Source: a virus
Virus record (IMG/VR): IMGVR_UViG_3300003691_000034
Span: 1 to 30,796 of that record
Reading direction: 5' to 3' (one strand)
Length of the DNA stretch: 30,796 nt
This document shows, piece after piece, positions 7,130 through 29,126 of the stretch (positions are counted from its first letter, which is position 1; each line of letters starts with the position of its first letter). A model generated the notes under the pieces. It was not told the DNA's origin, did no database searches, and saw only the letters and a list, made by a program, of their open reading frames with translations. Position numbers and translations under genes: made by a program.

Positions 7130-10100
7130 ATGAGCAATGCAATAGATTTAGTAGTAAGTAAAAAGGCTATAGAGGGTTTAAATCAATTAGAAGCAAAGCT
7201 TTTAGCTGCTCACAATAGTATAGTAAAGATAAATGCTTTAGGTGTTAAGTTTAACGGTGGTAAGCCAGTTAAAGGACTTCCTGAAACCATATCACTACAA
7301 GCTGAGTACAATAAATTAGTTAAGCAAACCGAGAGCGCAAACAATAAAGCAACTTTAGCACAGGCGGGATATAATAAAGCTATTTTAGAGGCTAGAAACA
7401 CAACCAATGAACTAAACAAACAAACAAGACTACAGATAAAATCCACGAGTGCATTAAGTGACGCATATACTAAGGTTGACGCAAAATTATCTTTGCTTAT
7501 TAAAGATTATAGGAATTTAGCTATAAGAAAAGAGCAAGGCGATAAGCTTACGAAGAGAGAGATTAAAAGAATGGATAAGTTAAGGGGTAAGATTCAGAAA
7601 TTGGATTCGGCTCTTAAACGAGTAGACGCTAGCACTGGTAGATTTGGTCGATCTGTAGCTAATTATCCTAAACAAATTAATCCTGCAATTTCATCTATAA
7701 GGGCTTTAGCTTCAGCAATGGGGTTAGTCGGCGGTGCGTTCTTATTTGTTCAAGTTATGCGTGACGCATTTAATAGGGTTCGTGAGTTCGATAAAGCAAT
7801 GCAGAACATATCGGGTATATTAAGAACTAATAGAAGTGAATTAAAAGACCTGGAGCAAGTTATTATAGAGGTTGCTGGAGCTAGTATAAAAACATCTAGA
7901 GAAGTTGCGGGATTAGCTGAGTCTTTAGTTACGTTAGGTAAATCTAAAGGGGAAATAAAGCAGTTATTAAAACCAGTTAACGACTTAGCAATTGGTTTAG
8001 AGACTACAGGAGAAGAGGCAGCAGAATTTCTAGTACAAACATTAAACGCTTTTGGTGCGGGTAGTGATGAAGCAGAAAAATACGCAGATACAATCGCCAC
8101 AATAAGGACTTCTACTACTTTAAATTTTCAAAAGATGCGGGATTCTTTCCAATTCTTAACTCCTATATCTAGAATATTAAACAAAGATTTAGCCTTTACA
8201 GGTGCTTTAATTGGCGTATTAGCAGATAATGGTGTTAGAGCGGAAAGGGCTGGTAGATTATTAGGTACGGCGCAACAAAAACTTGCTAAAGAGGGTAAAA
8301 CGTTGTTTTCTGCATTAAATGAAATAAACGAAGCCTTTGCTAGAGGTGTTAAAGAAGAAGAGTTATTAGCTCTAGCAAGTGATTTATTTGGTAAACAAGC
8401 AGCGGCTTTAGGTATTATATTAGCAAATAACACAAGTATAATAGAGAAAAACGCACAAGCTATACGAGATAATGGCGGTGCTTTAGATGATTTAGTTAGT
8501 GAGCAGTTAGAGTCTTTAGACGCTAAATTAAAGATATTAGATAGTACATGGGAAAAGTTTATACTGTCTATTGAAAAAGGTGACGGAGTTATATCTAGAG
8601 TGGTAAAAACGTTTATAGAATTAGCTACAGAAGCTTTTAATCTAGCTATACTTTTTAATAAGCTATCTACTACAACTTATAATGAGCATTTTATAGAAAA
8701 ATTTTACCAACAGACTTTGAGATTATTAGATGCTGAGAAACAAACAAATGAGGTTTTAGAGGCTAGTTTAGGTATTAATCAAAGAAAATTAGCGCAATTA
8801 AAAACAGCGGCTAAGTTTGATAATCTAACAGAGAAGCAATTAAAAGACAACAAGTTAGAGCAGTTACAGCAAATAGGAATAATAAAGGCTCTTAAAGAAA
8901 AAATAGTTACTCTAAAAGAATTAGAGCAGCTAGAAGGAGACGGCGCTAGCGGTGGCGGTGACGGCGATGTATCAAGGCAAAAAAATCTAAAAACAGTATT
9001 AGAATTAGAAAAAAAGATAGGTAAAGAAAAGACATTTAATATAGCGCAAACTGTATCAATGACTGATGCCATAAAAGAACAGATAACCGCAACAGAAAAT
9101 ATATTATCAAGGTTGCCTAAATGGTCAGAAGGATATACGCTTGTTAAAAATAAATTAGATCAACTAAAAGACTCTTTAGAGGGAATAAAAGTAGACAAAA
9201 TAATAAAAGATTTAGATAAATGGGCTGAGAAATACGAAGAGCAACAAAAACTAATTAGAGATACGCATAAGTTTTACGCAGACCAAAGAAGAGATATTGA
9301 AAGAGACTTGCAGAACACTATAAAAGACTTAGCTATAAGTGTTGTTGATTCTATATTTGAAGTTCAATTAAGAAGGTTTGATAGAGAATCTCAATTAGCA
9401 CAAGATACAGCAGAAAGAGATTTATTATTTGCAGGAGATAGCGCAGCGGCTCAAGAGAATATTCAAAATCAATTAGCAGACAGGGAAGAAGATATACAAC
9501 GGAGAAGAGAAGAAACGGAAAGAAAAGCGTTTTTGTTTCAACAAGCATTTAGGGCGGGTGAAGTTGCTATAGACACTATCCAGGCTGTAGCCGAATTAAA
9601 AGCACAAGCCGCTATACTTTTAGCAAATCCAGTTACAGCACCATTAGCAGGACTGGCATTAGGGCAAATACCTTTAGTTATAGCTACAGGAGCAATAGCT
9701 GGCGGTGCAATACTAGCACAATCATTACCAGCGTTTAAAGATGGTGTTCATGACTTCGCAGGAGGTTTAGCTATAGTTGGAGACGGTGGAGTTAATGAGG
9801 TTGTAGAAACACCAAACGGAACTTTCTTAACACCAAACAAAGATACTTTAGTTAATCTACCTAATAAATCAAATGTTTATAGTAATCAAGAAGAGTACTT
9901 TAGAGAGAAATTAAACCAAGTGTTATCTAATAACGGCATTCAAGGTATTAGAGATATTACAATACCTAAAGGGTTAACGAAGCAAGATTTAGACGACGTA
10001 ATGAGTAAGCAATTCAAGAAGATGCCAAAAGGTCAAGCGGTTGTTAATTTTGATAAGAAAGGTATTCATACTTATTGGGATGATGGTGTAACTAAAAAGA

Positions 10101-23528: not shown

Positions 23529-23618
23529 TAACTGTTATCTTAGTGTTTGCTTAAATAAATTTCGAACATTAAAACGCTCGATAACAGTTAATAAAAAACA
23601 TTAAAACGATTTTTTATT
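23529..23618. repeat. Convergent junction: 11-bp inverted repeat, direct repeats and AT hairpin
   Basis: TAACTGTTATC (23529-23539) is repeated inverted as GATAACAGTTA (23580-23590). AACATTAAAACG occurs twice (23565-23576 and 23597-23608). A third element, AATAAAAAA at 23590-23598 with TTTTTTATT at 23610-23618, makes a nine-pair AT hairpin with T/A tracts on either strand. The cluster separates plus-strand late genes from minus-strand genes and could end transcription from both sides. It may also be the outer end of the cassette array. Confidence 0.55.
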
Positions 23619-23647
23619 TTGGTGTTAGCAACAATAAAAAAGGGCGC

Positions 23648-24427
23648 TCACTGTTGCGGTTGTACGTGTTGAAAAAGTTTCCATATATCATTTTTAGTTA
23701 TGTAAGGGCTACTGCAATAATCTTTGCAACCTAACCAATCAAAGTTTAAAATTGTTTCTTTTACAAAATCAACTTTTGTTTTATCCTTAACTACTATTTT
23801 GTAAGTTTGAGTATGTTGGTTAATTAGTTTTTCTTTTCCAATACTTGCGCCACGTCTAAAAACACATAAATCAAAATTACAATTTTCGTGTTCTTTTTGG
23901 TCTTCTCTGTAAATTTTAATCCAATCTATTTTGTAGTTAGGCTTTTTGTTTAGTTTTCCATTTCTTGGTCTGTGGTATAAATTAAAACAACAATGTACTT
24001 TCATACCGCTATATTCCATTTCACCTAAATCAATACTTTTAACTAAATCAAATTCATATAAACTATCATTATTATTCAATAAACCAATAGGTAAAATAAA
24101 GCCTATCATATCAGCCATTTTACAAGCGTGTTTATAAAAACTTCTGCTCAAATTATTTCTATCACCAAAAGGTGGGTTTCCTATAAACGCTCTGCCTTGT
24201 TTGTAAGGTAAATCTAATTTAAGAAAATCTTGTTTAATTATACTTTCGTGTTCTGGCTCTAAATCATAAGCAATACAATTGGGTATCTGTAAACTAAAAA
24301 TTCCATTTCCTGCACTTGGTTCAATTATTTCAACTACATTTAAAAATGTATCGTTAAATACATTAATACATTTCTTTGCAGTTTCTTTAGGTGTGTAAAA
24401 TTTATCTAATTCTATATTATTGCTCAT
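23648..24427 (-). CDS. Orphan adenine-specific DNA methyltransferase
   Basis: The 259-residue protein has class I methyltransferase motifs: FYTPKETAKK (motif X-like, 10-19), EPSAGNGIF (36-44, SAM binding) and NPPFG (84-88, catalytic motif IV for amino methylation). This order (X, I, IV) fits N6-adenine enzymes. No restriction endonuclease is adjacent, so it is probably a solitary phage methylase that protects phage DNA or changes expression. Target site unknown. It overlaps the 44-aa gene upstream by 11 bases. An RNA or protein substrate is less likely but not excluded. Confidence 0.8.
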   Translation of the reverse strand: MSNNIELDKFYTPKETAKKCINVFNDTFLNVVEIIEPSAGNGIFSLQIPNCIAYDLEPEHESIIKQDFLKLDLPYKQGRAFIGNPPFGDRNNLSRSFYKHACKMADMIGFILPIGLLNNNDSLYEFDLVKSIDLGEMEYSGMKVHCCFNLYHRPRNGKLNKKPNYKIDWIKIYREDQKEHENCNFDLCVFRRGASIGKEKLINQHTQTYKIVVKDKTKVDFVKETILNFDWLGCKDYCSSPYITKNDIWKLFQHVQPQQ

Positions 24428-24551
24428 ATCCTTTTATTAAGTCAATTAACGTGTTTGGTGCAATATGAAACCAACTACTGTTTTCATTTTTTAAAGATGC
24501 CCAAACGCCTGTTTCTTTTAAATACTCTATTACTTTTTCTCTATCTTCCAT
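24417..24551 (-). CDS. 44-residue protein co-encoded with the methyltransferase
   Basis: The chosen start gives MEDREKVIEYLKETGVWASL and the end NTLIDLIKGYEQ. The frame stays open upstream to a TTG at 24605, but that part runs through the cassette-end repeat and is probably untranslated. Small, mostly helical, unknown family. The overlap with the methyltransferase start points to coupled expression and perhaps joint function, for example as a target-recognition or regulatory helper (speculative). Confidence 0.5.
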   Translation of the reverse strand: MEDREKVIEYLKETGVWASLKNENSSWFHIAPNTLIDLIKGYEQ

Positions 24552-24600
24552 TCTGTACGTATTTGGTTTTTGCAAAACCACGCCCTTTTTTACAGTAGCT

Positions 24601-24620
24601 AACAATGGCTATAAAAAATA
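24601..24620. repeat. AACAATG-N2-TATAAAAAATA spacer motif, copy 1
   Basis: The 20-base string AACAATGGCTATAAAAAATA starts at the right end of cassette 1. Related strings occur at 26757-26776 and, two bases shorter, at 27287-27304. All three lie at cassette boundaries and none lies in a gene. The GCTAT and ATAGC halves here can also pair as a short hairpin with the next bases. Confidence 0.55.
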
Positions 24621-24718
24621 GCTGTTAATCGCTTTTAACGTGGTTTCTGTTTGTTTATTAATATTGTTTCTTATTCAAGGTTTTAGTGTTTTAAAACGCT
24701 ACATTTCATAGCCTAAAC

Positions 24719-24976
24719 GTTACCCACAATAAAAATTACTAGTCTTGTGGTTCTTTTGGCAATTCGCACCAATGGGTCACATCTTCCATAAAGCTTTCTC
24801 CTGCTTCATCATAAAAGCCTTTTGCATCATCGTAGTATTCAGCCACTACCCAACGGCTATTCTTAGGAAAGCTATGTGGTGCATAAGCTAAATAGCTTCC
24901 ACATTCTGCATCGGGTAATTTGTCTTTTACATTAAATATTTCTGTCATAATTCCGTAATTTTAAAAGATGGGTAAC
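24719..24976 (-). mobile_element. Putative gene cassette 2 (DUF551-like gene) bounded by inverted repeats
   Basis: The left end 24719-24739 starts GTTACCCA and finishes AAAATTAC. The right end 24955-24976, in reverse, also starts GTTACCCA and finishes AAAATTAC, differing only in the middle and by one base in length. The stop codon (24739-24741) touches the left repeat and the start codon is six bases from the right one. The enclosed unit is one gene. Confidence 0.55.
24739..24948 (-). CDS. DUF551-like small phage protein
   Basis: The 69-residue protein matches the DUF551 pattern: an N-terminal DKLPDAECGSYLAYAP segment with a conserved Leu-Pro, a middle VVAEYYDDAKGFYDEAG, and the diagnostic end DVTHWCELPKEP (usual form VTHWMPLPEPP). 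Members of this family are common in phages and prophages and have no agreed function. It occupies a cassette by itself. Length is near the family norm. Assignment to the family is fairly secure; function is unknown. Confidence 0.7.
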   Translation of the reverse strand: MTEIFNVKDKLPDAECGSYLAYAPHSFPKNSRWVVAEYYDDAKGFYDEAGESFMEDVTHWCELPKEPQD

Positions 24977-25036
24977 ACCACCTATATTTTATAATTTTTT
25001 CGTTCCTCAAAATTCCAAACCATAGCCATAACGTTA
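24973..25036. repeat. Diverged spacer core, copy A
   Basis: The spacer between cassettes 2 and 3 has TAACACC followed by CTATA, then CGTTCCTCA (25001-25009), then ATAACGTTA (25028-25036). Order and approximate spacing match the better conserved cores at 26167-26225 and 28449-28503 (ATAACACCGTATA, TCGTGCCTCA, TACGTTA). Confidence 0.5.
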
Positions 25037-25287
25037 TGCTACAATAGGCATCGAGCCACGCAATCAAACCAGTAAAAATCACACAGATATAAATACTTTA
25101 CACACAGGACAGTTTACATATCTACCGTCTCTATCTTGATTTATGTCTGAGTTATTATAACTAAATTCAGTATCGCATTTATGGCATACTTTGTTTATTT
25201 CTTGATTCTCCTTAAGATTACCTACTTTAATTATTTTCATTTTTTTAGATTTTTAATAGTTTAAAAGATTGCTTATTGTAGCATAAC
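25033..25287 (-). mobile_element. Putative gene cassette 3 (zinc-ribbon microprotein) bounded by inverted repeats
   Basis: GTTATGCTACAATAGGCA at 25033-25050 is matched in reverse at 25270-25287 with a single mismatch over 18 bases. The unit contains one 53-residue gene. The repeat differs from those of all other units, which argues that it is the end of this unit rather than a general intergenic repeat. Confidence 0.6.
25079..25240 (-). CDS. 53-residue zinc-ribbon microprotein
   Basis: The frame MKIIKVGNLKENQEINKVCH continues to a second cysteine pair and ends CKVFISV. Cys19 and Cys22 (CHKC) and Cys44 and Cys47 (CPVC) form a standard CxxC...CxxC zinc ribbon with a 21-residue loop rich in Asn and Asp. 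Such small ribbons usually bind nucleic acid or a polymerase partner; which applies here is unknown. It is the only gene in its unit. Confidence 0.6.
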   Translation of the reverse strand: MKIIKVGNLKENQEINKVCHKCDTEFSYNNSDINQDRDGRYVNCPVCKVFISV

Positions 25288-25458
25288 GGGCAACGTATGG
25301 CTACGCATCGGCGATCTAAGTTTATATTTATTTAATTCATTTTCTATTCGATGTCTACTATACATAACAATGCATAAAGTTCAAAGATGCGCAGCTCAAT
25401 CGGTTCTAGTGTGTATGCTGCGCATCCACGAACCTTATACGTTGCCCGTTATCTACAA
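25276..25458. repeat. Large imperfect palindrome between cassettes 3 and 4
   Basis: TTGTAG-C-ATAACGGGCAACGTAT (arm positions 25276-25298) is matched in reverse by 25437-25458, perfectly except for one extra C in the left arm. Inside lies a second hairpin with perfect ten-base arms (GATGCGCAGC at 25386-25395, GCTGCGCATC at 25417-25426). The interior has no convincing gene. The left arm overlaps the right end of cassette 3, the right arm the left end of cassette 4 and its stop codon. A single bulged base in a long folded arm is also a feature of integron attC sites. Confidence 0.7.
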
Positions 25459-25656
25459 TTTTTCTTTTAAATTTTTCCCAACGCTCTTTGGGTTTTGCAA
25501 ACCCATTAAAAAGGTTTCTAATGGTTGCTCCCATTTCTTAGGTAAGTTTTGAGAATCATTTACAGCTTTAATCAAAGTGCTATCAGGCATCTTTAAATGT
25601 TGTTCTATTGCTCTAATACTTAAAAACTTTTTGTTTTCTTTTAGCCAATCTATCAT
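25453..25656 (-). CDS. 67-residue probable helix-turn-helix protein
   Basis: The protein has SIRAIEQHLKMPDSTLIKAV, which fits a helix-turn-helix pair, followed by LPKKWEQPLETFL, a segment I recall from small Bacteroidetes phage regulators. A basic C-terminus follows. It is the last gene of the three-gene unit, joined by an ATGA overlap at 25653-25656, and its stop codon is inside the cassette repeat. It is a candidate for the factor that binds the two operators ahead of the same operon, which would make it autoregulatory (inference). Confidence 0.55.
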   Translation of the reverse strand: MIDWLKENKKFLSIRAIEQHLKMPDSTLIKAVNDSQNLPKKWEQPLETFLMGLQNPKSVGKNLKEKL

Positions 25657-25910
25657 AAGTACTCACCTCTTGTTATTGATAAAAATAAACTCTCTAAATC
25701 TTCTGTCCCAGCAACGACACCAAGTAGTATTGTATTCTCCCAAATATCCTGTTGTAAGTGTAATTGATGCATATAAACAAGATAATCTTTATTTATTTTC
25801 ACTATTTGAAATTTAGTTCTACCTCCATTAATTTCAAATGTAAACCCCCAAGTGTTTTTATTTCTACCTAATTTTGGGTAATCATTAAGTATTTTATCCG
25901 TTATTTTCAT
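25653..25910 (-). CDS. 85-residue phage protein with E-D-L-x-x-L-F-x-x-I-T-R end
   Basis: The middle gene of the three-gene unit begins MKITDKILNDYPKLGRNKNT and has a beta-rich centre (KFQIVKINKDYLVYMHQLHL). It ends with TEDLESLFLSITRGEYL. The same kind of ending occurs in the 80-residue protein of cassette 6 (HELRDLFFAITRTKLI), so the two are probably distant paralogues. Both ends overlap neighbours by ATGA. No biochemical function is known to me. Confidence 0.55.
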   Translation of the reverse strand: MKITDKILNDYPKLGRNKNTWGFTFEINGGRTKFQIVKINKDYLVYMHQLHLQQDIWENTILLGVVAGTEDLESLFLSITRGEYL

Positions 25911-26056
25911 AATCCTAATCTTTTAAAATTCCCTCTCGCTGCTTCTCTTGCTTTTTTTACACTTCCAAAACATATAATATCTACACACTTGGAACAGTTC
26001 TTTTGGTTTGGGTAAATTTTTACACCACAACGATTGCATTTTTTAGTTTTTTCCAT
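25907..26056 (-). CDS. 49-residue four-cysteine zinc-finger protein
   Basis: First gene of the operon: MEKTKKCNRCGVKIYPNQKN, then CSKC, ending in a basic GNFKRLGL. Cys7/Cys10 and Cys21/Cys24 give a compact CxxC-x10-CxxC zinc knuckle, followed by a further Cys and a basic helix (KKAREAARGNFKR). It overlaps the 85-residue gene by ATGA. A promoter -7 box lies 24 bases upstream. Probably nucleic-acid binding; a regulatory role is inferred from composition. Confidence 0.6.
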   Translation of the reverse strand: MEKTKKCNRCGVKIYPNQKNCSKCVDIICFGSVKKAREAARGNFKRLGL

Positions 26057-26074
26057 AATTATATGTTTTAATAT

Positions 26075-26122
26075 TTATCCAAAGATACGGATAATAATTG
26101 ATATATCCTAATTTGCGGATAA
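26075..26122 (-). promoter_or_regulatory. Promoter with two operator-like palindromes for the three-gene unit
   Basis: On the minus strand TATCTTTG (26080-26087) matches the -7 box TAnnTTTG. It lies inside a palindrome, TTATCC-N8-GGATAA at 26075-26094. A second, almost identical palindrome (ATATCC-N8-GGATAA, 26103-26122) lies exactly 28 bases upstream, over the expected -33 region. Two such sites overlapping both promoter elements indicate control by a dimeric repressor. The -33 element itself is weak. The binding protein is not known. Confidence 0.6.
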
Positions 26123-26166
26123 AATAAATAAAAGCCCACGCTAAAATTTAAAATAAAAACAGATAG

Positions 26167-26225
26167 ATAACACCGTATATAGTCTATTGCTCGTGCCTCA
26201 CAACATACCATATACAAGTACGTTA
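26167..26225. repeat. Spacer core, copy B
   Basis: ATAACACCGTATA (26167-26179), TCGTGCCTCA (26191-26200) and TACGTTA (26219-26225) make up the spacer between cassettes 4 and 5. The same three blocks in the same order form the spacer at 28449-28503. On the minus strand AAC and GTATAT near one side can pair with ATATAC and GTT near the other, leaving TGAGGCACGA in the loop. Confidence 0.65.
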
Positions 26226-26410
26226 CCAACAATTAAATTGAGGTAAATGTTTCGGGGTAATCCCTACGCAACACCCTCGCACCCAATAAGTCTTGTAATT
26301 TATGTAGGTTGCTTACCCATTCCGTTATTTCCATTGGGTGTGTTTTGTCTAATTCTATAAAGTTATTGTGCGCTTCCACAAGTAAATCCATAATTTTAAC
26401 TGTTAAGAAC
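26222..26410 (-). mobile_element. Putative gene cassette 5 (52-aa protein) bounded by inverted repeats
   Basis: The left end 26222-26239 (GTTACCAACAATTAAATT) is matched in reverse at 26392-26410 (GTT, AACA, TTAAA and TT blocks in register with one gap). The stop codon lies inside the left repeat and the start codon directly abuts the right repeat, so the unit is almost only gene plus ends. Confidence 0.5.
26233..26391 (-). CDS. 52-residue conserved phage protein (HP-x-E...W...LHKLQ...R type)
   Basis: The frame gives MDLLVEAHNNFIELDKTHPM, then EITEWVSNLHKLQDLLGARV and ends PETFTSI. The spaced signature H-N-x-F...THP...E-W-V...LHKLQ-x-L-x-x-R...R-R-D-Y-P is one I recall from very small proteins in many phage early regions. 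Its conservation suggests a real and useful gene, but no function is known to me. It fills cassette 5 from end to end. Confidence 0.6.
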   Translation of the reverse strand: MDLLVEAHNNFIELDKTHPMEITEWVSNLHKLQDLLGARVLRRDYPETFTSI

Positions 26411-26730
26411 AACGTATATAATTAAGCACTTATTAGTTGTTTATCTATAAGTTTTGTTCTTGTTATCGCAAAAAACAAATCTCTTAATTCGTGTTCGTAG
26501 TTTAATTTTACCAAAAATATTTCACCTCCAACCATAACGTCTATTTCATTACCGTGCAGATTAATTGTAACATGCTCAAATCCATACAAATTTTTATAGG
26601 CTTCATATTTTTTAATTTGTGGTAAACTAATAAGCCATTTCTTTGTTATTTTTTTTGCTTTCATTCTGTGATATATTTAAAAGTTCTGTCTTTATTCTGC
26701 GTGCCAAATCATATACAACACGTTGTGCTT
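26405..26730 (-). mobile_element. Putative gene cassette 6 (80-aa protein) with imperfect inverted ends
   Basis: Left end 26405-26429 (AAGAACAACGT, ATATAATT, GCAC) corresponds in reverse to 26701-26730 (AAGCACAACGT, ATATGATT, GCAC), with a five-base insertion between the first two blocks on the right. The match is weaker than for other units, and the left part overlaps the right end of cassette 5. Confidence 0.4.
26422..26664 (-). CDS. 80-residue phage protein, paralogue of the cassette 4 middle gene
   Basis: The protein begins MKAKKITKKWLISLPQIKKY and has a short beta region (HVTINLHGNEIDVMVGGEIF). It ends with HELRDLFFAITRTKLIDKQL. The end resembles TEDLESLFLSITRGEYL in the protein at 25653-25910, and both carry a beta-rich centre, which suggests a common origin. 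Family and function are not known to me. It has its own cassette-like unit. Confidence 0.55.
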   Translation of the reverse strand: MKAKKITKKWLISLPQIKKYEAYKNLYGFEHVTINLHGNEIDVMVGGEIFLVKLNYEHELRDLFFAITRTKLIDKQLISA

Positions 26731-26768
26731 CATTAAAACGCCACTTCGTTAAGCACAACAATGTGTAT
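26711..26768. repeat. Spacer hairpin between cassettes 6 and 7
   Basis: GTTGTGCTT (26722-26730) and AAGCACAAC (26751-26759) form a perfect nine-base stem. Outside a four-by-four internal loop, TATACA and TGTATA continue the stem. The apical part contains AACG and CGTT, which can pair again. No coding sequence lies in it. Confidence 0.6.
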
Positions 26769-26776
26769 AAAAAATA
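26757..26776. repeat. AACAATG-N2-TATAAAAAATA spacer motif, copy 2
   Basis: AACAATGTGTATAAAAAATA overlaps the 3' arm of the spacer hairpin and the left end of cassette 7, and reaches to within two bases of the cassette gene's stop codon (26778-26780). It matches copy 1 at 24601 in 18 of 20 positions. Confidence 0.55.
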
Positions 26777-27036
26777 GCTACATTTTCTCTATATATTGAG
26801 GTTTTACCCTAAAGTAAAAATAGCCTGCTTGCTCGCTTCCACATTTTACTATTCCTTTTGTAGTTCCCCTTTTGTTTTCTTCACCTTCGTAAGTTCCTTC
26901 TGCACCTGCTCGCCAACTAATGTCTAACTTACCCGTTTTTGGGTGGTACTCCTTGTAATTATCTACTATTTTTACTCTATCACCTATCTGCATTTCAATA
27001 ATATTTTTAGTTAATAAACCGCTACTTTTCATACAC
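26763..27036 (-). mobile_element. Putative gene cassette 7 (small beta protein) bounded by inverted repeats
   Basis: GTGTATAAAAAATAGC at 26763-26778 is matched in reverse at 27021-27036 (GTGTATGAAAAGTAGC), 14 of 16 positions. The stop codon (26778-26780) overlaps the last base of the left repeat. One gene lies inside. Confidence 0.5.
26778..26993 (-). CDS. Small beta-barrel (SH3/KOW-like) protein, unknown function
   Basis: The chosen start gives MQIGDRVKIVDNYKEYHPKT, then WRAGAEGTYEGEENKRGTTK and FRVKPQYIEKM at the end. The opening I-G-D-R-V-K-I-V and the G-x-Y-E-G turn resemble small SH3-like or KOW-type barrels. The frame is open to an ATG at 27032, but that start lies inside the cassette repeat, so the internal ATG is preferred. 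The longer form would add 13 residues. Function unknown. Confidence 0.55.
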   Translation of the reverse strand: MQIGDRVKIVDNYKEYHPKTGKLDISWRAGAEGTYEGEENKRGTTKGIVKCGSEQAGYFYFRVKPQYIEKM

Positions 27037-27043
27037 CAATCAC

Positions 27044-27289
27044 GTTAGCAAACATTAGTACACTGTGTATCCATCAGGGTCTATTCCTAATTTTACACAT
27101 TGCTCAATACAGCTTGTTCTACCTCCTTTCATTGTTCTAAGTAACAACCAGTCTCCTACTAATTTTGCATTTGTAATTCTTTTCCTTTGTGCTTTAGGCA
27201 TTCTATCTTCAATATTTCTAAGAAGCCCCGTAATAAAATCTTTTTGATCTATTCCTTCAATTAATTCATTCATATTAACGTTTGCTAAC
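27044..27289 (-). mobile_element. Putative gene cassette 8 (72-aa protein) bounded by inverted repeats
   Basis: GTTAGCAAACATTAGTAC at 27044-27061 and its reverse at 27272-27289 (GTTAGCAAACGTTAATAT) share 15 of 18 positions, ten of them an unbroken block. The stop codon (27055-27057) lies inside the left repeat and the start codon (27271-27273) touches the right one. Confidence 0.6.
27055..27273 (-). CDS. 72-residue protein of cassette 8
   Basis: The preferred start reads MNELIEGIDQKDFITGLLRN, followed by a basic stretch RMPKAQRKRITNAKL, then LLLRTMKGGRTSCIEQCVKL and the end PDGYTVY. The frame is open to an ATG at 27291, but this would translate the cassette repeat. The Lys/Arg-rich centre and the two cysteines in the C-terminal half are the only notable features. 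I recognise no family. Confidence 0.5.
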   Translation of the reverse strand: MNELIEGIDQKDFITGLLRNIEDRMPKAQRKRITNAKLVGDWLLLRTMKGGRTSCIEQCVKLGIDPDGYTVY

Positions 27290-27304
27290 AATGTATAAAA
27301 AATA
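27287..27304. repeat. AACAATG-TATAAAAAATA spacer motif, copy 3
   Basis: This copy lacks the two variable bases but keeps AACAATG and TATAAAAAATA. It begins in the right end of cassette 8 and extends outward, away from the gene, as copy 1 does at cassette 1. Confidence 0.5.
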
Positions 27305-27365
27305 TACTATCATTAGGCTTTTTAAAGGTTTGTAATTATTTATATTGTTCTGTTTTTACTCGTTA

Positions 27366-27406
27366 TTTCGTGCTTATCTACACGTACATTTCTTATACTA
27401 AACGTT
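27366..27406. repeat. Diverged spacer core, copy C
   Basis: TTTCGTGC (27366-27373), a middle part with ACGTAC and TTATAC, and AACGTT (27401-27406) resemble the right two-thirds of the core at 28449-28503. The ATAACACC block is not recognisable. It lies just left of the 90-residue gene. Confidence 0.4.
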
Positions 27407-27434
27407 GGTAGTAATGTTTGCTTAGTCAACGCTA

Positions 27435-27707
27435 TTACCCTAAACTAAGATTAGTTACTGCCATATTGTTACTACCATTTGCATACTTTATCGCTTTGGC
27501 TTGTGTTGTAAACATACCATGTACCACAAGAGAAATTGTGTCTTGTACCATCCAAACACTACAACCAACACCGTGTAACAGTAATTGCTCTTCCTTATAT
27601 TTCACCAAAATCTGTGCTATATCTTTACTAGCTTTTCTGTCATATCCTTTAGAAGTCATCCATTTAAACGCTTCTACTTCTTCTAATGCTTTTTCTTGTT
27701 CTGTCAT
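27435..27707 (-). CDS. 90-residue protein, unknown function
   Basis: The protein begins MTEQEKALEEVEAFKWMTSK, with a helical N-terminal half (GYDRKASKDIAQILVKYKEE), then a more hydrophobic part (GCSVWMVQDTISLVVHGMF) and a polar end. It lies between a diverged spacer core on the left and another spacer on the right. A clear private inverted repeat is not seen for this gene, unlike its neighbours. No family recognised. Confidence 0.5.
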   Translation of the reverse strand: MTEQEKALEEVEAFKWMTSKGYDRKASKDIAQILVKYKEEQLLLHGVGCSVWMVQDTISLVVHGMFTTQAKAIKYANGSNNMAVTNLSLG

Positions 27708-27770
27708 TATTTGTTATTTAAGTTCTTAATTCCACGCAACTACGGTTACACAATTACGTTATATACAATA

Positions 27771-27911
27771 CTATTTTTTTCCACCCACTCTTGCGTGCTC
27801 ACTCAATACATCTTGGATGTAGTTTTTAAGGTCTTTCTTTGCTTTGATGGCAAGTATCTGTAAACTTTCAAGCGTTCCGTCATCTTCGTCTATATCTATT
27901 AATTTTCTCAT
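27771..27911 (-). CDS. 46-residue ribbon-helix-helix-like protein
   Basis: The frame MRKLIDIDEDDGTLESLQIL, then AIKAKKDLKNYIQDVL, ends in a basic GGKK. A leading strand with alternating residues, then two helices with K-x-L-K-x-Y-I, is the layout of Arc/MetJ-type ribbon-helix-helix proteins, which bind DNA as dimers. Similar proteins (MRKLIDID...LKILAIKA...LKNYIE) are, from memory, frequent on Bacteroidetes mobile elements. It may act as an antitoxin-like or phage regulator. Its stop lies in the cassette repeat. Confidence 0.6.
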   Translation of the reverse strand: MRKLIDIDEDDGTLESLQILAIKAKKDLKNYIQDVLSEHARVGGKK

Positions 27912-27928
27912 TGTTCAATATTTTTTAG

Positions 27929-27947
27929 TGTTCAGTTACAATGAACA
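27929..27947. repeat. Short hairpin between the two genes of cassette 10
   Basis: TGTTCA (27929-27934) and TGAACA (27942-27947) flank a seven-base loop at the end of the 121-aa gene; its stop codon (27936-27938) lies in the loop. No T-tract follows in either direction, so it is a weak terminator or processing site at best. Confidence 0.35.
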
Positions 27948-28340
27948 GTTAAATTCTTTGAACAAATTACCAAAGAAAAACATAAGTGTATCACCACTTA
28001 ATTTATTTTTACGTGCTTGTTTTAATGCTTTTTTAGCAGAATCAAAATCCCACTTCATTGGGTTTATATCAAAAAACAATATAGCATCATAAGAGGCTTT
28101 TGCTTGTTCAAAAGTCATATTCATAGTTCCAAATGCTAAAGTTGGAAAAACACCTACTTCAACATAGTAGCTATCACCATTAAAACCATAAGCCTTATCA
28201 AGTGAATCACCTATTACGCCAATAGGTTTTTTATAGTTAACTAACTTTTGAGCATTTATAGAAGCTCTAACTGTTGAAGAATGTGTCGGTGTATGTGTGA
28301 AAAATGCAGGCATAATAAAAAAATTAAGTTGTTGCTTCAT
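27936..28340 (-). CDS. Protein of unknown function in cassette 10
   Basis: From the ATG at 28340 the frame reads MKQQLNFFIMPAFFTHTPTH; a second ATG at 28313 (MPAFFTHT) would leave a leader of about 30 bases after the promoter and may be the real start. The frame also continues upstream to 28481, but that part crosses the promoter and the cassette boundary. Central strands (KPIGVIGDSLDKAYGFNGDS) and a helical end (FDSAKKALKQARKNKL) suggest a small alpha/beta protein. No family recognised. Confidence 0.5.
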   Translation of the reverse strand: MKQQLNFFIMPAFFTHTPTHSSTVRASINAQKLVNYKKPIGVIGDSLDKAYGFNGDSYYVEVGVFPTLAFGTMNMTFEQAKASYDAILFFDINPMKWDFDSAKKALKQARKNKLSGDTLMFFFGNLFKEFNCSL

Positions 28341-28350
28341 TGCAACAGTA

Positions 28351-28382
28351 CAAATATATATTATATATATGATATACACAAA
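28351..28382 (-). promoter_or_regulatory. Bacteroidetes-type promoter for cassette 10 genes
   Basis: On the minus strand TATATTTG (28351-28358) fits the -7 box TAnnTTTG, and TTTG (28379-28382) fits the -33 box. The gap is 20 bases, at the long end of the usual range. Transcription would start about 28345, which favours the ATG at 28313 over that at 28340. Confidence 0.5.
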
Positions 28383-28448
28383 CATTTGTTGTAAATATTT
28401 TATTTTTATGCAAAAATAATTTGCCAACGCGCTAAAATAGTACAGTAT

Positions 28449-28503
28449 ATAACACCGTATAAAATCCATTTCGTGCCTCAACGTATCTTATTACAATACG
28501 TTA
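28449..28503. repeat. Spacer core, copy D
   Basis: ATAACACCGTATA (28449-28461), TCGTGCCTCA (28471-28480) and TACGTTA (28497-28503) repeat, with slightly shorter gaps, the core at 26167-26225. It separates cassette 10 from the NinG-like gene and marks the outer end of the array on this side. Confidence 0.65.
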
Positions 28504-28526: not shown

Positions 28527-29126
28527 CTAAGTCTTCAGTTCCTTTAGTTGATTTCTGTAATACGCTCTTATCTTTTTTAACTCTTCTCGATCCCATTTAA
28601 AATCTACGCTATGGTCTAGTTTTCCTAATTCATCTAGTGCTTTAAAAGCGTCTTCTCCGATTCGTGATGGTAAATTAACTCTATACTCGCTTTCGTTTCC
28701 TTCTTTTCTAATATTACATTGAACACATTGCGCATTAATATTTAGCTCATTAAACTTTATAGTACTGAATAATTCAGCTTTATAAAAGTGTCCTGCCTGG
28801 AAATCTTTGTGCCATTGAGTGCCACAACTTATACAAGGTTTGTTTTTATCTCTTAGTCTTATGTATTCGTGACATACCGATTTAACAGATTCTAAAATAG
28901 AGGTTAATCCTTTTCTGTTTTTATGTTCCTTTTCTATCTTCTCAAAATCTAAACGAGGCTTTGAAACTTTTAAAGCGCTCCTTTTTATTCGATTAATTCC
29001 ATTAGGTGTATTATATAAAAACTCTTGATAACACCTACAATCTAATCCTAATCCTAGTTTTCTGTTTTCTTGCTCAGTATTACAACCGAGTCCGTAAGTG
29101 TCTTTAGATGTTCCTCTACATTTCAT
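28527..29126 (-). CDS. ninG: NinG/Rap-type recombination protein
   Basis: The 199-residue protein matches the NinG family: an N-terminal cysteine cluster (Cys3, Cys15, Cys30, Cys32), a helical middle, and the core with Cys98/Cys101 (PCISCGTQWHKDFQAGHFYK), His113 and Cys134/Cys137 (LNINAQCVQCNIRKEGNESE). Lambda NinG (Rap) is a Holliday-junction/branched-DNA endonuclease that acts in recombination. The HNH-like metal site appears complete. A Rad52-type annealing protein is encoded upstream on the same strand, which suits a joint recombination role. The start directly follows the upstream stop. Confidence 0.8.
   Translation of the reverse strand: MKCRGTSKDTYGLGCNTEQENRKLGLGLDCRCYQEFLYNTPNGINRIKRSALKVSKPRLDFEKIEKEHKNRKGLTSILESVKSVCHEYIRLRDKNKPCISCGTQWHKDFQAGHFYKAELFSTIKFNELNINAQCVQCNIRKEGNESEYRVNLPSRIGEDAFKALDELGKLDHSVDFKWDREELKKIRAYYRNQLKELKT

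Follow-up and report, generated by a model that had tools for sequence, protein, structure and literature searches.

The stretch of DNA analysed here (the window) is a 30.8-kb record, IMG/VR IMGVR_UViG_3300003691_000034, from a virus with a marine bacterial host, with phage head, tail and tape-measure genes, and at 23.6-28.5 kb its minus strand carries nine units, each of which starts with GTT and ends with AAC. These units very probably form a phage-borne array of integron-like gene cassettes, to which a tyrosine recombinase would add cassettes at an attI-like end. As cassette arrays of the same kind are found beside a recombinase and an entry site in the chromosomes of many Bacteroidota, the array seems to be a relative of the integron system that has been overlooked.

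Eight of the nine units have mutually inverse ends, which are not inverse to the ends of other units; unit E, the ninth, has a degraded pair. The end plan consists of GTT, seven private bases and A at one end, and of the inverse followed by AAC at the other; in chromosomal ends the fixed A at one end faces a fixed C at the other. Common hairpin sites lie between the units, with the layout, in gene direction, AAC-5 nt-TGTATA...loop...TATAC-3 nt-GTT. A cassette consists of one unit, with the gene between its private ends, plus one hairpin site (AAC, stem-loop, GTT). As in integrons, the private ends of a cassette are separated in the array, and every site has an end of one cassette on one side and an end of another on the other. 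The features from 23571 to 28502 are the following:

23571-23626, minus strand: putative attI-like docking site at the array end; palindrome AATAAAAAAC-9 nt-ATTTTTTATT, then TTGGT and GTT, the first cassette being joined at GTT 23624
23624-24603, minus strand: cassette I; 259-aa methylase-like gene 23648-24427 and 62-aa open reading frame (ORF) 24417-24605; private ends 23 bp
24601-24721, minus strand: attC-like site between H and I; hidden Markov model of the site (site HMM) E=1e-12; GGCTAT...ATAGCC stem
24719-24976, minus strand: cassette H; 69-aa DUF551 gene 24739-24948
24974-25035, minus strand: short attC-like site between G and H, seen in the sequence
25033-25287, minus strand: cassette G; 53-aa gene 25079-25240; private ends 18 bp
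25288-25447, minus strand: composite spacer; perfect 16-bp palindrome GGGCAAC...GTTGCCC; nested GTT/AAC boxes
25448-26171, minus strand: cassette F; three small genes, 25453-25656, 25653-25910 and 25907-26056
26169-26224, minus strand: attC-like site of 56 nt; AAC-GTACT-TGTATATGG...CTATATAC-GGT-GTT
26222-26412, minus strand: cassette E; 59-aa ORF; degraded private ends
26410-26724, minus strand: attC-like site with an 80-aa gene (26422-26664) in its loop; stem TGTATATGATTTGGCAC / GTGCTTAATTATATAC
26722-26759, minus strand: mini-unit D, gene-free; GTTGTGCTT...AAGCACAAC
26757-27046, minus strand: attC-like site with an 84-aa gene (26778-27032) in its loop; the site HMM matches both halves
27044-27289, minus strand: cassette C; small gene, 78-aa ORF 27055-27291
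27287-27406, minus strand: attC-like site between B and C; weak site HMM match, E=0.09; conserved layout
27404-27569, minus strand: cassette B; holds the C-terminal part of the 90-aa ORF 27435-27707
27567-27760, minus strand: attC-like site; its loop encodes the N-terminal part of ORF 27435-27707
27758-28453, minus strand: cassette A; two genes, ORF 27936-28481 (true start probably within the unit) and 27771-27911; private ends 20 bp
28451-28502, minus strand: attC-like site between the NinG gene (28527-29126) and cassette A; AAC-GTATTG...TTTTATAC-GGT-GTT

A preliminary description of this DNA had listed seven units and two weaker ones, with inverted ends of about 16-29 bp. The nine GTT...AAC units are real, but their strengths are uneven: the ends are strong in A, B, C, G and I and moderate in F and H, whereas D is a gene-free unit of 38 nt and E has three mismatches in its private bases, so that ends of the length described do not belong to every unit. 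The region 27404-27569, which had been taken for a spacer, is a good unit (B). Some of the other "spacers" are large because a whole gene lies inside the hairpin loop (26778-27032, 26422-26664) or because an ORF starts there (27435-27707). Entire genes within the loop of a site, outside any unit, are seen in another stretch as well (L004, 39350-39484). Related to this, ORFs that begin in a site loop and continue across ACGGTGTT into the next unit are found in the window (27435-27707) and in L004 (39969-41809), and recombination would therefore exchange their C-terminal parts; the HNH endonuclease of Polaribacter phage P12002S is built in the same manner.

The privacy of the ends, claimed in the preliminary description, is borne out statistically. 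The strongest inverted repeats of the whole window (span within 1.3 kb) all fall at 23.6-28.5 kb. When the nine units are anchored at GTT...AAC, the mean score of an end with its own partner is 8.7 and with other ends 1.2, and none of 20,000 permutations gave an own-end mean as good. Five GTT...AAC inverted repeats scoring at least 9 are present in the array, against a mean of 0.45 and a maximum of 2 in 100 dinucleotide shuffles and none in five control stretches from this phage, so the scores do exceed those of shuffled sequence. A score of at least 8 with the own partner is reached by 46% of 123 sites, almost all of them taken from genomes and viral contigs, compared with 0 of 615 for swapped ends and 1% downstream. 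An insertion sequence or a miniature inverted-repeat transposable element was rejected as an explanation, since it needs terminal inverted repeats common to a family, whereas the ends here are private.

The motifs that the spacers had been said to share belong to a common attC-like site, recovered with the site HMM, and the integron-like logic of private ends plus shared spacers is supported. As had also been noted, the ends do not follow the integron consensus: the R-box pattern RYYYAAC/GTTRRRY is matched by only 9 of 85 and 6 of 128 sites. The L stems are conserved, and so are G.T/A.C positions. Folding of the genome sites gave z values of -2.9 and -2.2 on the two strands, and the window sites are mostly weak. 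Such stems could also be read as RNA elements, that is, as terminators or processing hairpins around each gene, the linkage to a recombinase being coincidental. They adjoin most genes, and with G.U pairing of the phage site strand an RNA hairpin would form; chromosomal genes, on the other hand, run against the site, and there an RNA hairpin would have mismatches. As an Rfam search gave no match, and as private complementarity over hundreds of bases and the recombination borders described below would be left unexplained, this explanation is extremely improbable.

Integron-like arrays with the same sites are present in the chromosomes of Flavobacteriaceae and of wider Bacteroidota, and the similar spacers that the preliminary description mentioned for Bacteroidetes genomes do exist. 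One exact half-site pattern matched more than 116 stretches of GTDB genomes, mostly of Flavobacteriaceae, and with at most one mismatch it was found in 86 of 199 Flavobacteriaceae genomes (about 1 with the reversed control). The chromosomal unit is usually a compact cassette filled by one gene, whose ORF often starts 13-36 nt past GTT and stops about 14 nt before AAC. In one stretch (L245) seven consecutive cassettes with sites of 114-122 nt begin 44 nt after the recombinase gene.

Identical cassettes occur in different genera, with borders within 1-3 bp of the GTT/AAC boxes. Positions 9698-10583 of L166 (Algibacter miyuki) correspond to 10454-11338 of L167 (Cellulophaga sp.), 886 bp at 96.7% identity from GTT to GTT; the flanks are unrelated, and the common cassette is the first after the recombinase in L166 and lies behind another cassette in L167. 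Overall, 23% of 115 ends of shared segments lie at most 15 bp from a box, compared with 2% at random; these ends include reciprocal hits, and the independent events are therefore about half as many. The search for units in other neighbourhoods, proposed in the preliminary description, has thus found the same chromosomal cassettes in different settings with exact ends, and these cassettes consist, as in integrons, of a gene and one site with borders at GTT.

A tyrosine recombinase, mostly of 375-415 aa, adjoins the chromosomal arrays. Of the fetched neighbourhoods of this recombinase, 12 of 20 contain site matches; the same genomes also have XerC/D-type recombinases, and 0 of 20 neighbourhoods of these contain any. 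A palindrome follows directly after the recombinase stop codon, and then GTT-N7-A opens the first cassette; arrays begin 27-119 nt after the gene. The recombinase genes of L166 and L167 are at 8526-9653 and 8695-9837, respectively. For 23 of 36 recombinases there is a GTT within 150 nt whose seven bases recur inverted before AAC within 3.5 kb, compared with 0 of 19 XerC/D-type controls and a background of 0.4% per GTT. Two copies in one Psychroserpens genome (L163 and L164) do not differ before GTT but carry different cassettes beyond it. The recombinase is thus adjoined by an attI-like site at which the first cassette is joined, as expected of an integron. Many array-linked recombinase genes stand at contig ends (L161, L165-L174, L177, L180), as they would if repeated arrays interrupt assemblies. 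A divergent gene upstream of the recombinase encodes a small cysteine-rich protein in at least two genomes (L163 3454-3846, L180 9902-10249).

The array-linked enzyme is related to IntI4 and to archaeal XerA. With the integron integrase model TIGR02249 (cut-off 265) it reaches 175-207 bits, the profile region of about 180-240 being unmatched, and with NF040815 (XerA/integron integrase; cut-off 220) 178-236 bits. IntI4 residues of about 182-238 have no counterpart in it, whereas XerA and XerC align without a gap; the IntI-specific additional domain, which defines integron integrases, is missing. Its N-terminal 105 aa or so (e.g. L039, 172-1329) gave no Pfam match and have a predicted beta-beta-alpha-beta-beta-alpha order. 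The AlphaFold model has good local confidence and a predicted template modelling score of 0.44, for which reason the modelled domain arrangement was not used; its best PDB matches are XerA and then IntI4. Across the phylum, 80 of the 247 Bacteroidota genomes searched contain relatives, many of which lack the N-terminal 105 aa or so. Recombinases of Acinetobacter plasmids (hits H36-H38 and H53) are 52-55% identical to the catalytic part of the array-linked enzyme.

No recombinase was found among the scanned window proteins, the window being a 30.8-kb fragment in which not every ORF was scanned, and viral contigs yielded one distant relative of the array-linked enzyme. Since the phages examined carry no such recombinase, the host probably supplies the enzyme that moves their cassettes. 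For the mover, which the preliminary description regarded as unknown, the host-encoded IntI/XerA-like recombinase is a strong candidate and, judging from its linkage to the arrays, may act on these sites. The tyrosine recombinase beside the array of Cellulophaga phage phi18:3 (gp037) was rejected as the mover: it matches only XerD, at 29 bits, and lies outside the array-linked family.

The cassettes also change between phages. Most of the length of P12002S and P12002L matches at 98-99.7% identity, but their cassette content differs, units having been gained, lost or replaced, so the gene order in related phages is not fixed. A 68-bp stretch bearing a palindrome is identical in P12002S (one copy) and P12002L (two copies), and the cassette starts after the three copies are all different and joined at GTT (GTT-CTATGTA-A, GTT-ACCCACA-A and GTT-AGGCACA-A). 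Window positions 23571-23623 are similar to it, and Cellulophaga phages phi10:1 and Nekkels have a stretch that is 88-90% identical to that of the window, beside which the cassette content is other than in the window. From their sequence and position, these palindromic stretches are read as phage attI-like sites. An exact search of viral contigs for the window docking site gave no match, and searches of viral contigs with NinG or a left-flank protein found no close relatives of the window. The window methylase has no match in 198 Flavobacteriaceae genomes, so that no direct exchange of that gene between phage and chromosome was seen.

The ends of the window methylase cassette are 98-100% identical, as far as the unit edge, to those in P12002S and phi18:3, and the methylase genes inside these ends differ between the three. 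Methylase cassettes of unrelated families (window 23624-24603; L004 38122-38943; L007 14842-16014) have 23-bp ends and at most 50 bp of flank in common. Ends of this kind, 47-50 bp long around unrelated genes, could be taken for ordinary phage mosaicism, in which the spacers are short homology linkers for annealing or general recombination and the inverted ends are incidental or transcriptional; the recombination gene NinG adjoins the array in the same phage, and a P12002S/L junction lies in a short TGTAT repeat instead of at GTT. Mosaicism is nevertheless improbable, because it does not account for private ends of a fixed plan, exact borders between genera, varied first cassettes at attI-like sites or the linked recombinase.

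According to the integron-like reading, the private ends of a circular cassette would come together on both sides of the site and pair into a single long hairpin specific to that cassette, and the tyrosine recombinase would join the folded single-stranded site to the attI-like palindrome with the crossover at GTT. New cassettes would therefore enter at the attI end, which in the window phage would be the methylase end at 23.62 kb. The anatomy, the exact borders, the exchange between genera and between phages, the varied first cassettes at attI-like sites and the chromosomal linkage of recombinase, attI-like site and array have been observed; the circle, the single-stranded step and the role of the host enzyme are deduced from the analogy with integrons and from the reported activity of one P12002L site with IntI1 (PMC9892861). 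Several observations weigh against this reading. DNA folding of the window sites is only weakly better than that of shuffles, and the test for an attI-like site with its partner was negative for 13 of 36 recombinases. Two pairs of stretches (L057/L085 and L076/L124) share a unit without either adjoining site, and the direction of genes relative to the site is reversed between phages (toward attI) and chromosomes (away from attI). The ends of about 50 bp common to methylase cassettes with unrelated genes do not fit yet, and the one clear P12002S/P12002L indel is joined within the TGTAT box, some 11 nt into the site. A crossover in the TGTAT box, an idea that came from that indel, was rejected, as most other borders are at GTT/AAC.

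It is likely that a Bacteroidota-wide class of integrons exists apart from IntI, with a XerA-like recombinase lacking the IntI domain and with 7-base private ends, and that phages with their own attI-like site and arrays exchange small accessory genes, DNA methylases for instance, by means of the host enzyme. If so, integron-like gene capture would be common in a major phylum and largely missed so far, because standard detectors require the IntI domain and canonical attC sites. Phages would gain a ready means of picking up accessory genes, methylases among them, and the domain thought to be the mark of integron integrases would prove dispensable for recombining cassettes at private hairpin sites. 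From the 7-base private ends it could be read directly which ends belong to which cassette and which was joined last. No description of this platform (7-base private ends, a dif-like attI behind the recombinase gene, and an enzyme that lacks the IntI domain) was found in the literature searched, preprints and most subscription journals lying outside it, and priority is not established. Integrons have previously been reported in Bacteroidota (PMC8618304; PMC2426708).

The likeness to the integron (IntI, attI, attC) lies in the recombinase gene with an adjoining attI-like site, the tandem compact single-gene cassettes, the hairpin sites, the GTT...AAC boxes and a probable exchange at GTT. On the other hand, the Bacteroidota recombinase lacks the IntI-specific domain and has an extra N-terminus of about 105 aa, and the R boxes are GTT-N7-A with private bases and not GTTRRRY; the system is therefore integron-like in its working and not a standard integron. 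Moreover, an integron integrase is transcribed away from its array, whereas here the recombinase gene has the orientation of the cassette genes, with its 3' end toward the array, and phage genes lie opposite to the chromosomal orientation.

Published phage clusters of attC sites lacking an integron integrase (CALINs), P12002L included, come from the same phage group and have methylase cassettes and attC sites without integrase, and one of them, P12002L_attC2, recombined with attI1 by IntI1 in Escherichia coli (PMC9892861). The main text of that paper tests two P12002L sites; a phage attI, private ends and a Bacteroidota recombinase are not described there. More P12002L sites and two attI-like copies were seen here. 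The activity with IntI1 would suit a canonical CALIN, that is, standard attC sites taken from an ordinary IntI integron. With R boxes off consensus, a linked enzyme without the extra domain of IntI, and recombinase and cassette genes in the same direction, this origin is highly improbable for the window array.

The reverse-oriented integrons of Spirochaetota (Treponema) have a non-standard orientation of integrase and cassettes (PMC9668308). They resemble the present integron-like arrays in breaking the away-from-array rule, but possess a true IntI. They are not known to have a private 7-base end plan. Elements that use Xer/dif, such as pdif modules, combine a Xer-family enzyme with palindromic dif-like sites. 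The present system shares with them the Xer-family enzyme and a dif-like attI-like site, but its cassette site is a private hairpin and not a conserved 28-bp duplex site.

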